Shown here: piece after piece, positions 1,571 through 4,973 of the stretch
Layout of the letters: every line of letters starts with the position of its first letter
How positions within the stretch are numbered: position 1 is the stretch's first letter
IMG/VR virus record: IMGVR_UViG_3300025769_000776
Location: 1-25,194 of that record
DNA length: 25,194 nt
Direction: 5' to 3' (one strand)
Source of the DNA: a virus
Notes under the pieces: model-generated
Database searches by the model: none
Seen by the model: the letters and a program-made list of their open reading frames with translations, nothing else
Told to the model about the DNA's origin: nothing
Position numbers and translations under genes: made by a program

Positions 1571-2923
1571 TTGCCCAAGAAGCTCTCGGAAACAGAAGCC
1601 AAGAAGATTCTCGGTGTAGCCGGTGATAACACTCACAACGGCCAGATTCGGTCAGACGAGTTCCTTCCGGAGCTTCGTGGCAAGAAGGCTATCCGTAAGT
1701 ATCGTGAGATGCGGGACAACGACAGCACCATTGGTGCAGTTATGTACGCCACTGAGCAGGTACTCCGAGACGTAAAGCTGAAGGTAGTCGCAGCTAACGA
1801 CTCGGCAGAGGCTAAAGCAGAGAAAGAGTTTGTCGAGACGGTCCTGACGGACATGGACCATACTCTGGAAGATCATATCGCTGAAGCCCTTTCTTCTTTG
1901 TCGTATGGCTTTGCTTGGTTCGAGGTTGTCTACAAGCGTCGTGGTGGCCCCAACTTCCGAGACTACAAGCGCTACTCCAAGCACACTGATGGTCGTATCG
2001 GTGTTCGTAAGCTGGCCATCAGAGCGCCTTGGACGGTATCTAAGTTTGATGTAGACCAGAAGTCCGGTGATGTACTAGGTCTCTATCAGGAAGGCTCTCA
2101 GTTTGGCAAAAGCCATTATATCCCTGCTAACAAGTCTCTATACTACAAGACCACGGCAATTAATGGGGACCCTTCTGGTCGCAGCATTCTTCGCAATGCT
2201 TACACTTCTTATGAGTATCTGAACAACCTTCAGGCTATCGAAGCGATTGCAGTAGAGCGTGAGCTTGCTGGTATCCCTGTAGCCCGTATTCCCTCGGAAT
2301 ACCTCTCTTCAGATGCTTCCTCGGCTCAGGCGGCTTTCAGAACCAACCTAGAGGGTATCCTGCGAGATGTAAAGTTCAACGAGCAGGGTTACATCATCAC
2401 CCCGAGTGATACCTATCCTGACAAAGACGGTAGCCCAACTAACGTCCGTCTTGTAGACATCGAACTTATGTCGTCCAGCGGGACACGCAACATTGACATC
2501 GACCCGATTGTTAGCCGCTATCAGCATGACATTGCTCGTAGTGTACTGTCTGAGTTTCTTCTACTCGGCGCACACAGCGCCGGTGGCTCGTATGCGCTAT
2601 CTAAGTCTAAGACCGACCTATTTCTTAGAGCATTGGAAAGCTACATTGGTGCTATCACCGACGTACTCAACAAGCAGCTTATTGAGCGACTCTGGCAACT
2701 CAACGGCCTTTCCTACGATACTATGCCCTACATCGAAGCAGGTGATGTAGCTCCGCATGATCTCCGAGAGATCGCAGCCTTCCTGCGCAACCTTAATGGC
2801 GCAGACATCAACGTGTCTGACCACCCCGAAGTTATTCAAGACCTTATGGACATTGCGGAGCTTAGTTATGAACCTGATGCGACTTCCCGGCGAACTGTAT
2901 CAACGAATGAGCCGTCGAGCTAA
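1571..2923 (+). CDS. Portal protein (DUF935 / Mu gp29-like)
   Basis: The dodecameric ring at the capsid vertex through which DNA enters and to which the tail attaches. The 450-aa length, the position straight after terL and the sequence pattern all fit DUF935 (Mu gp29-like) portals. The N-terminal part contains REMRDNDSTIGAVMYATEQ, followed by KLKVV. A central GDPSGRSILRNAY motif at about residue 199 is followed by a long helical stretch, NNLQAIEAIAVERELAGIPV. The C-terminal helical region contains an FLRNLNGADINV segment. The start is a TTG at 1571 with a weak AGGA about 10 bases upstream; no in-frame ATG occurs before residue 47, so TTG is the best choice. The 3' end overlaps the next gene by 56 bp. 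Confidence 0.87.
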   Translation: MPKKLSETEAKKILGVAGDNTHNGQIRSDEFLPELRGKKAIRKYREMRDNDSTIGAVMYATEQVLRDVKLKVVAANDSAEAKAEKEFVETVLTDMDHTLEDHIAEALSSLSYGFAWFEVVYKRRGGPNFRDYKRYSKHTDGRIGVRKLAIRAPWTVSKFDVDQKSGDVLGLYQEGSQFGKSHYIPANKSLYYKTTAINGDPSGRSILRNAYTSYEYLNNLQAIEAIAVERELAGIPVARIPSEYLSSDASSAQAAFRTNLEGILRDVKFNEQGYIITPSDTYPDKDGSPTNVRLVDIELMSSSGTRNIDIDPIVSRYQHDIARSVLSEFLLLGAHSAGGSYALSKSKTDLFLRALESYIGAITDVLNKQLIERLWQLNGLSYDTMPYIEAGDVAPHDLREIAAFLRNLNGADINVSDHPEVIQDLMDIAELSYEPDATSRRTVSTNEPSS

Positions 2924-3032
2924 AGAAGCCCGAGAGCTTCAGCACCTCAAGAGCATGACTGATCGAGAGCTTGCTGACATCGGACTTACCCGTAACCAAA
3001 TTTATGAAGCCTTCTTTAAAGGACGTAAGTGA
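2868..3032 (+). CDS. Small DUF1127 (YjiS-like) protein
   Basis: A 54-aa basic protein. Its C-terminal half, HLKSMTDRELADIGLTRNQI, is an almost textbook DUF1127 motif, preceded by an Arg/Lys-rich helix (RRAKEAREL). The ATG at 2868 was chosen because GCGGAG lies seven bases upstream and because any longer reading is only a shadow of the portal gene. It overlaps the portal 3' end by 56 bp, and its TGA shares a base with the ATG of the next gene. DUF1127 proteins are small and abundant in alphaproteobacteria, where some act in RNA- or stress-linked regulation. A role in a phage head operon is not known to me; it could be host-directed or a small structural adaptor. Confidence 0.85.
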   Translation: MNLMRLPGELYQRMSRRAKEARELQHLKSMTDRELADIGLTRNQIYEAFFKGRK

Positions 3033-4141
3033 TGCCCTACAGCAGTAACGCAGACCTCCCAAAGGCAGTCCGTCAGACTGTCCCAGAAGAGAAGCAGGGC
3101 AAGTTCCGGCAAGTGTTCAACTCCGTTATGGAGGACACCGGCTCCGAACAACGTGCCTTTCAGGCTGCGTGGTCTGCTGTAGAGAAGGTAAAGACCTCCA
3201 CTCTGGCTGAGAAGGCCAAGAACTGGAATGCAAAGCATGGAGCTTCTAAGGGCCGCATCTCGGCTAAGACCCTTCGTGCTGTATATGACCGTGGTATCGG
3301 TGCTTACAAGACCAACCCCGGCTCTGTGAGGCCTAACGTCACGTCCAAGGAACAATGGGCAATGGCCCGAGTAAACAGCTTCCTAAAGATTGCCGCTGGC
3401 CAGAAGTCCGCTACGCATGACAAGGACCTACTGCCGGAGAAGTCTGTGAGCAAAGCCGAGTATCGTGGCAAGAAGGTAACTCTGGACAAGCCCTTCCGTT
3501 TGCCTGCTGGGTCCACCAAAAAGTTTGGTGTGTATGTAAAGTCGGGCGACAAGGTGAAGAAGGTTACCTTTGGTAGCCCCACTATGGAAATTCGTCGGGA
3601 TGACCCTAAAGCTAGGGCCAACTTCCGAGCTAGACACAACTGTGCTGGTAAGACAGATAAGACCACACCGGGATACTGGTCCTGTAAAATGTGGGAACCG
3701 GGTGTTTCTGTGAGCGAAATGCTCGCAAAGAACGAACCCGAAGAAGAACAAGCGAACCTTGAGGGTCAAATCCTAAAGACAGATGACGAGCAACGTCTGG
3801 TTTATGGTTGGGCCTCGGTCATCACTGAAGATGGTAAACCTCTGGTAGACCGTCAAGGTGATGTTATTGAAGCCGACACTATGGTAAAGGCCGTGAATAA
3901 ATTCATGGAACATATTCGTGTTGGTAAGATGATGCACAAGGGGGATCAAGTAGGCCAAGTGGTCCACTCGATGCCGCTCACTAATGAGATTGGTGAAGCC
4001 TTGGGCGTTTCCAGTAGCCGTGAAGGTTGGATCGTAGCATTGAAGGTATTCGATGATGAGGTCTGGTCTCTGGTAAAATCTGGCCAACTTACGGCCTTTT
4101 CTATCGGCGGCAAAGCTAAACGGAAGGAAGTCAATGACTAA
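3032..4141 (+). CDS. ChaB-domain / prohead protease fusion protein
   Basis: A 369-aa multidomain head morphogenesis protein. Residues 1-55 (MPYSSNADLP...AFQAAWSAVEKV) match the ChaB fold. Residues 60-125, with GRISAKTLRAVYDRGIGAYK and EQWAMARVNSF, resemble DUF5824. Residues 146-222 hold a beta-rich stretch and FRARHNC...YWSCKMW. Residues 245-369 resemble an S78-type prohead protease: VYGWASV, a likely catalytic His in MMHKGD (H302) and a likely nucleophile Ser in FSIGG (S357). The ATG at 3032 has AAAGGAC at a suitable distance; the GTG just before it (3029) is less likely. The protein ends soon after FSIGG, and the SLVDRPAN strand that normally follows lies in the next gene. It probably matures scaffold and capsid. 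The role of the ChaB part is unknown. Confidence 0.85.
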   Translation: MPYSSNADLPKAVRQTVPEEKQGKFRQVFNSVMEDTGSEQRAFQAAWSAVEKVKTSTLAEKAKNWNAKHGASKGRISAKTLRAVYDRGIGAYKTNPGSVRPNVTSKEQWAMARVNSFLKIAAGQKSATHDKDLLPEKSVSKAEYRGKKVTLDKPFRLPAGSTKKFGVYVKSGDKVKKVTFGSPTMEIRRDDPKARANFRARHNCAGKTDKTTPGYWSCKMWEPGVSVSEMLAKNEPEEEQANLEGQILKTDDEQRLVYGWASVITEDGKPLVDRQGDVIEADTMVKAVNKFMEHIRVGKMMHKGDQVGQVVHSMPLTNEIGEALGVSSSREGWIVALKVFDDEVWSLVKSGQLTAFSIGGKAKRKEVND

Positions 4142-4973
4142 CATCTTGCTCGACTTGGAGTTGGACGAACTGTCATTGGTAGACCGTCCGGCAAACCAAG
4201 CCGCTACAATCTGTCTTATTAAAAGGGACGAAAGCATGGAAGACATGGAAAAAGGGTACGACTCTTACCTCGATGAGCGTAAGATGTACTACATGGACAA
4301 AGGTATGGGTGAAGACGAAGCCATGAAGAAGGCCAAGGAAGAACTCGACAAGATGTCCGCTAAAGAAAAAGAAGAGCTTATGGCTCGTCTTGGTAAGGCT
4401 GATGAAGCTGAAGAAACCGAAGTAGATCAGGAAGCCCTGTTTCTGGCTGAGGTTGATGCTCTCAAAGCTGAAGTCTCCCGCCTCTCCAAGGCACTTGAAG
4501 ACAACGGGTTTGCTGTTACTGAAGAAGAAGTAACCAAAGCCGAAGAACCAGAATACCTCGAAGTCGAAGGCGAGAAGGTAGCTAAGTCGGACATTCCGGC
4601 TCCAGTCCTGAAAGCCCTCGAAGAAGCAGCGATTGAAAAGCGTATGGTTGAACTCCGTAAGCAAGCTGACGAAATCCTGCCTAACTTCGATAACGAAATT
4701 GCGGCCTCCCTCTTGGCTCATGTAGCTAAAGATGACGCAATCGTAGAGGCCCTCAAGGCTGCTGATGCAGCAATGGGTGCTTCGATGTCTGAGATCGGTG
4801 AAGCGTCGGTAGAAGCTGATATGCTTTCTTCCAGCGATAAGCTCGATGCTCTTGTTAAGTCCTACATGGACGAGAACAACCTTGCTAAGAAGGACCATGC
4901 TAAGGCGTACGCTGCTGTAGCTAAGACCGACGAAGGCAAGGCACTTATCACTAAGCTCTATAAAGGAGAGTAA
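4134..4973 (+). CDS. Capsid scaffolding protein with protease-like N-terminal tail
   Basis: A 279-aa protein, strongly charged (Glu/Lys/Ala-rich) and predicted helical, encoded between the prohead protease and the capsid genes: the usual place and composition of an internal scaffold that shapes the prohead and is then degraded. The first 32 residues (LDLELDELSLVDRPANQAA and following) are not scaffold-like; they match the segment that follows the catalytic Ser in S78-type proteases. The ATG at 4134 overlaps the protease stop as ATGACTAA and has GGAAGGAAG just upstream, suggesting coupled translation. A second start at 4236 also has a good ribosome binding site and would give a plain 245-aa scaffold beginning MEDMEKGYDSY. 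Function is inferred from context and composition. Confidence 0.78.
   Translation: MTNILLDLELDELSLVDRPANQAATICLIKRDESMEDMEKGYDSYLDERKMYYMDKGMGEDEAMKKAKEELDKMSAKEKEELMARLGKADEAEETEVDQEALFLAEVDALKAEVSRLSKALEDNGFAVTEEEVTKAEEPEYLEVEGEKVAKSDIPAPVLKALEEAAIEKRMVELRKQADEILPNFDNEIAASLLAHVAKDDAIVEALKAADAAMGASMSEIGEASVEADMLSSSDKLDALVKSYMDENNLAKKDHAKAYAAVAKTDEGKALITKLYKGE
4223..4238 (+). promoter_or_regulatory. Internal ribosome binding site and alternative scaffold start
   Basis: AAGGGA at 4223-4228 lies seven bases before an in-frame ATG at 4236 inside the scaffold gene. Initiation here would drop the 34 N-terminal residues carrying the protease-like SLVDRPAN segment. This is seen directly in the sequence; use in the cell is inference. 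Confidence 0.45.

Follow-up and report, generated by a model that had tools for sequence, protein, structure and literature searches.

The window, i.e. the whole 25,194-base virus record analysed here, belongs to a marine phage, and its head genes are arranged as portal (Mu-type), protease, scaffold, decoration and capsid (coordinates in Table 1). The protease gene was predicted to encode a Peptidase_S78_2 (XkdF) prohead protease, with a score of 67 bits against PF14550, above the gathering cutoff of 24. In its N-terminal part (3029-3700), ahead of the catalytic domain, profile searches placed a ChaB domain (E 2.5e-9), a DUF5824 domain (E 2.3e-9) and a further domain (phrog_7595). The protease ORF ends in ...AFSIGGKAKRKEVND (also written FSIGGKAKRKEVND), with the stop 10 codons past FSIGG. 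The scaffold ORF, read from the ATG at 4134 in the +1 frame relative to the protease, encodes MTNILLDLELDELSLVDRPAN, and this +1 frame shares 65 nt of open frame with the protease. The initial annotation had described a protease ending shortly after FSIGG, the following strand at the start of the scaffold ORF in the +1 frame, and this frame open from 4077; these points were borne out by the sequence and all coordinates were confirmed.

Table 1. Features of the protease-scaffold region (positions in the window).
Feature	Position	Strand	Basis or remark
XkdF-type prohead protease ORF (predicted)	3029..4141	+	GTG 3029 or ATG 3032; ChaB, DUF5824, extra domain and catalytic domain; PF14550 E 2e-18, residues 247-367
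Peptidase_S78_2 catalytic domain, without terminal strand	3767..4129	+	profile matched 4-126/126
Predicted catalytic His codon (MMHKG)	3935..3937	+	His in 66/66 representatives
Predicted catalytic Ser codon (FSIGG)	4100..4102	+	Ser in 66/66 representatives
Shine-Dalgarno of long scaffold, GGAAGGAAG, inside last codons of protease	4122..4130	+	synonymous-shuffle test
Scaffold ORF, long form opening with the protease strand	4134..4973	+	phrog_9427 (head maturation protease) matches protease at positions 10-127 and scaffold ORF at 144-385
Start/stop overlap of protease and scaffold ORFs, 8 nt, ATGACTAA	4134..4141	+	sequence
Putative terminal beta-strand of protease fold, scaffold-encoded, NILLDLELDELSLVD	4140..4184	+	strand profiles, joined-chain matches, model, conservation
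Internal Shine-Dalgarno AAGGGA for short scaffold, 7-nt spacer to ATG 4236	4223..4228	+	synonymous-shuffle test, 20 representatives
Short (plain) scaffold, internal ATG 4236, without strand (likely)	4236..4973	+	internal site conservation

Upstream of the protease, a DUF1127 domain (E 8e-11), unusual in a head gene cluster, is encoded by a small ORF (2757-3032) that overlaps the portal gene at its 3' end. DUF1127 is known mainly from alphaproteobacterial small proteins.

The window family has 36 distinct junctions, and at each of them the protease domain is split between two ORFs. In the cultured Roseobacter phage CRP-6, the same two proteins are gp55 and gp54, joined by a TAATG stop-start in the opposite frame offset. 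IMG/VR relatives, with scaffold identity down to about 45-50% and protease domain identity of 67-76%, were all split wherever both halves were readable. Among 260 fetched loci, plus the window, the strand was located in a separate downstream ORF at 218 loci, at the N-terminus of the protease in 25 XkdF-type proteins, and as a C-terminal fusion in 2 archaeal-virus proteins. The distant isolates RDJL Phi1, KPP23, Mulvp2, 13VV501A and K459 are also split; RcZahn, RHph_TM16, DLP_3, R21Y, Ab03 and P26059A were considered as split by position and motif, profile support being not significant. The KPP23 protease, used as a query against IMG/VR, gave no relatives. The tree of protease domains is small, with poorly supported deep nodes, and does not resolve the number of split origins.

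Several variants of the surrounding genes were observed in these genomes. CRP-6 gp55 is devoid of ChaB and DUF5824, and a BppU_N match (E 2e-6) was obtained for gp56 of the same phage (L002:2944-3267), which lies between portal and protease. At L209:2522-4129, the protease ORF runs about 400 residues past FSIEG in an unrelated extension, which is followed by a strand-bearing scaffold ORF.

The ribosome-binding sites of the scaffold were evaluated on 20 divergent representatives, using 2000 synonymous shuffles for each test. The scaffold start, be it ATG, GTG or TTG, is preceded at a short and similar spacing by a strong Shine-Dalgarno made up of the final codons of the protease (KEE, AAGGAGGAA-like), with a mean hybridisation of -9.2 versus -5.65 (sd 0.74) when the tail codons were shuffled, a value reached by none of the 2000 shuffles. 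The internal site before ATG 4236 gave -5.96 versus -3.12 (sd 0.51), again with 0/2000 shuffles reaching it, and no selected Shine-Dalgarno was detected by the same test at later internal scaffold ATGs. Both starts, at 4134 and 4236, which had been proposed in the initial annotation, appear to be kept beyond codon choice, and a plain scaffold nested in the long one is likely produced from 4236. Internal start candidates also exist in RDJL, KPP23, Mulvp2, Vibrio, gut, permuted and other phages; as they were chosen for having the best site, they are no more than suggestive. The long form starts with TTG in 10 of the 20 representatives, which would tilt the presumed ratio of the two products towards the short form.

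The identity of the strand was assessed with profiles from which relatives were left out. With the window family and its nearest isolate excluded from the strand profile, the N-terminus of the window scaffold was recovered at E 7.5e-6, far above any other ORF segment of the window, and leave-out profiles also recovered the strands of RDJL (1.8e-8), KPP23 (9e-7), the fused psiM100 (9e-5) and a gut phage (8e-4). The permuted strand (at the protease N-terminus) was not found by a leave-out profile (E 0.94), nor was the strand of Vibrio 13VV501A by a profile with the whole KPP23 group left out. With a profile made solely from gut/soil scaffold starts, the window-family starts ranked next after gut phage L141 itself among 15,070 ORF segments. 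When the two frames were joined, TIGR01543 (E 9e-4) and PF04586 (E 0.0017) matched across the junction, both below their curated cut-offs, and neither was listed in profile searches with the protease alone or the scaffold alone. In 66 joined representatives, the strand motif (Val 66/66, Asp 61/66, Ala 66/66) was found to be as conserved as the active-site His (66/66) and Ser (66/66). Judging from these comparisons, the segment at the start of the scaffold is a homologue of the terminal strand of the protease and not a chance match.

The structure of the artificially joined chain was predicted with AlphaFold2 (pLDDT 84) from a shallow alignment of 45 rows comprising the window and IMG/VR sequences; in this model the Ser-containing strand (130-143) is followed by the scaffold-derived strand (147-161). 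VIA-align placed T4 gp21 first (5jbl_B; Z 12.8, rmsd 2.6, 126 residues, model residues 20-165) and herpesvirus proteases next, most of them reaching model residues 167-171. The gp21 match comes from VIA-align, Foldseek of the joined model against the PDB giving no match below E 0.001, and sequence searches of the PDB with the protease and with the joined profile returned nothing relevant. The joined model has the overall assemblin-like fold (herpes/gp21/HK97), here distributed over two polypeptides, and the scaffold-encoded segment is located, in this model, inside the fold.

The third triad residue of T4 gp21 is an Asp aligned with D178 of SPN3US gp245, 25 residues past its Ser (PMC5694885). 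It is taken to be gp21 Asp168, which is on the terminal strand and invariant in nine relatives, so that the scaffold-borne strand of the phage would sit where gp21 holds its third catalytic residue. No single residue of the strand can be named as catalytic, because the profile-profile (HMM-HMM) alignment with gp21 is weak (P 0.033) and the Asp of the motif is replaced by Lys or Thr in Vibrio/Enterobacter phages; the assignment of such a residue through this alignment was dropped.

These results suggest that the protease becomes complete only on binding the scaffold. We consider, with a probability of roughly 0.68, that the region gives three separately initiated products (an incomplete protease, a strand-bearing long scaffold and a plain scaffold) and that the strand completes the protease non-covalently. 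According to this scheme, protease and scaffold would be translated as separate proteins. The protease ORF would yield an incomplete assemblin-type domain, in which the catalytic His and Ser are held and the last core strand is absent. Initiation at 4134, in probable coupling with the end of protease translation at the overlapping stop, would give the long scaffold, with the strand as its first ~30 residues, and internal initiation at 4236 would give the plain scaffold without the strand. The strand of the long scaffold would then dock into the protease by beta-strand complementation, completing the fold and also tethering the protease inside the scaffold core; loading and activity of the protease would thus depend on the scaffold. 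Of the three products that the initial annotation had listed as possible for this region, the separate protein initiated at 4134 and, likely, the plain scaffold from 4236 are retained; the frame-change fusion is not supported.

The main rival to this scheme is that the scaffold strand acts only as a docking peptide, or is a relic, the protease folding and working without it by means of its own tail or of an edge strand. The short form of the protease is indeed stable in evolution, its end being nearly at the same place in every split relative, and Pfam PF14550 ends there too. However, a segment that is as conserved as the active site, that corresponds to the C-terminal strand of the same domain in fused relatives (psiM100), and that is included in the gp21/herpes fold of the joined model makes this explanation the less likely one.

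It had also been proposed that a +1 shift within 4077-4138 joins the two halves, i.e. that a programmed frameshift yields a protease-scaffold fusion beside the separate proteins, and homologous junctions were compared for a conserved overlap. In favour of it, 65 nt of the +1 frame are open in the window, and shifting can be stimulated by a Shine-Dalgarno-like sequence ahead of the shift site; the placement of the Shine-Dalgarno in this region, however, fits initiation. The frame relation between the halves was +1 in 24 and +2 in 11 of the 36 distinct window-family junctions, the remaining one (offset 0) being separated by an inserted gene, and +1 in 24, +2 in 17 and 0 in 20 of the 61 distinct gut/soil junctions. 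No shared open frame was present at 50 of these 61 junctions, and at 51 distinct junctions overall, distinct junctions not being equivalent to independent events. In many close relatives a stop closes the scaffold frame directly ahead of the ATG, and the shared open frame shrinks to 8-14 nt in many relatives, so that the comparison revealed no conserved overlap and the 65 nt of the window are incidental. In two contigs, L110 (3387-3821) and L113, an endonuclease VII/HNH-like gene lies exactly between the protease and scaffold halves, and in Curvibacter phage P26059A a GIY-YIG/NUMOD3 endonuclease gene (L276:1856-2461) occupies the same protease-scaffold junction. Neither the conserved offset nor the conserved shared open frame that characterize a programmed frameshift was found (offsets +1, +2 and 0), and a conserved shift is strongly disfavoured because frame offsets vary among junctions; the frameshift signal was rejected on the varying offsets and closed frames, and a fusion made in this way is regarded as highly improbable.

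As a side observation, the last codons of the inserted endonuclease gene of L110 and L113 repeat the protease tail (AQKEEI*) with its Shine-Dalgarno.

A single-base error of sequencing or assembly, or gene decay, would leave just such a 65-nt shared open frame, yet this explanation, named in the initial annotation as a possible refutation of the split, is given a negligible probability and the error is ruled out by relatives, the same junction recurring in many independent metagenome assemblies and in isolates, including the cultured CRP-6 with its opposite offset.

Coming back to completion of the protease by the scaffold strand, a stronger form of this reading is a natural split enzyme gated by assembly, in which a core strand and the position of the third catalytic residue are missing until the scaffold supplies them in trans. 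This form is put forward tentatively, its chances being estimated as somewhat below even. If it holds, the enzyme could act nowhere but inside the scaffold core, and the two starts, by setting the ratio of long to short scaffold, would fix the number of proteases loaded per prohead. It has long been asked how a prohead protease is brought in at the correct copy number and stays inactive until shell assembly is finished; a split domain with its missing strand on the scaffold would be a concrete and testable answer in a large and common phage group. The split would also explain the truncated look of these proteases, the end point of PF14550 and the annotation of the scaffold as "hypothetical protein".

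XkdF proteases, nested scaffolds and strand complementation are each known. In the open-access literature, neither a description of a prohead protease core domain divided between protease and scaffold genes and conserved over a broad phage group nor published protein data on the split were found.

Among known systems, XkdF/Peptidase_S78_2 proteases (PF14550; phrog_3017, phrog_1530 and phrog_34096) have in common with the window the catalytic domain with its His and Ser motifs, as well as the gene order portal-protease-scaffold-decoration-capsid. The strand is C-terminal on the same chain in psiM100 and apparently N-terminal on the same chain in phrog_3017-type members, whereas in the window it is in the scaffold protein. 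Positions 1-32 of phrog_3017 match residues 1-33 of a split scaffold (E 0.0024), and L257 was matched by the gut/soil scaffold-start profile at E 0.033; from these sequence matches, a permuted, N-terminal strand appears to exist in some XkdF-type proteases. The AlphaFold model of a permuted relative had a pLDDT of 36. Circular permutation of this kind appears to affect some XkdF-type proteases (L235-L259, L143, L272, L274), for instance those of Lactococcus phage 28201 and, by eye, of Nonlabens phage P12024L. The PHROGs label of phrog_1530, "DNA methyltransferase", seems to have been given wrongly to XkdF-type prohead proteases, and it is found in GenBank records (L144:2177-2953, L271:1468-2100).

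HK97-type prohead proteases (PF04586, TIGR01543) and T4 gp21 (PF03420, PDB 5jbl) share the fold of the joined window frames, in which the terminal strand comes after the Ser strand; in gp21 this terminal strand bears the invariant Asp168. Unlike in the window, a single polypeptide carries the complete domain in these proteases. Lambda C/Nu3 and Mu I/Z are nested protease/scaffold genes, in which the plain scaffold is made from an internal in-frame start. The window has such an internal in-frame start, with a selected ribosome-binding site as in a Nu3-like nested scaffold, but its scaffold is encoded by a different ORF and is not the C-terminal part of the protease polypeptide: the nesting is internal to the scaffold ORF, with the protease made as a chain of its own from another frame.
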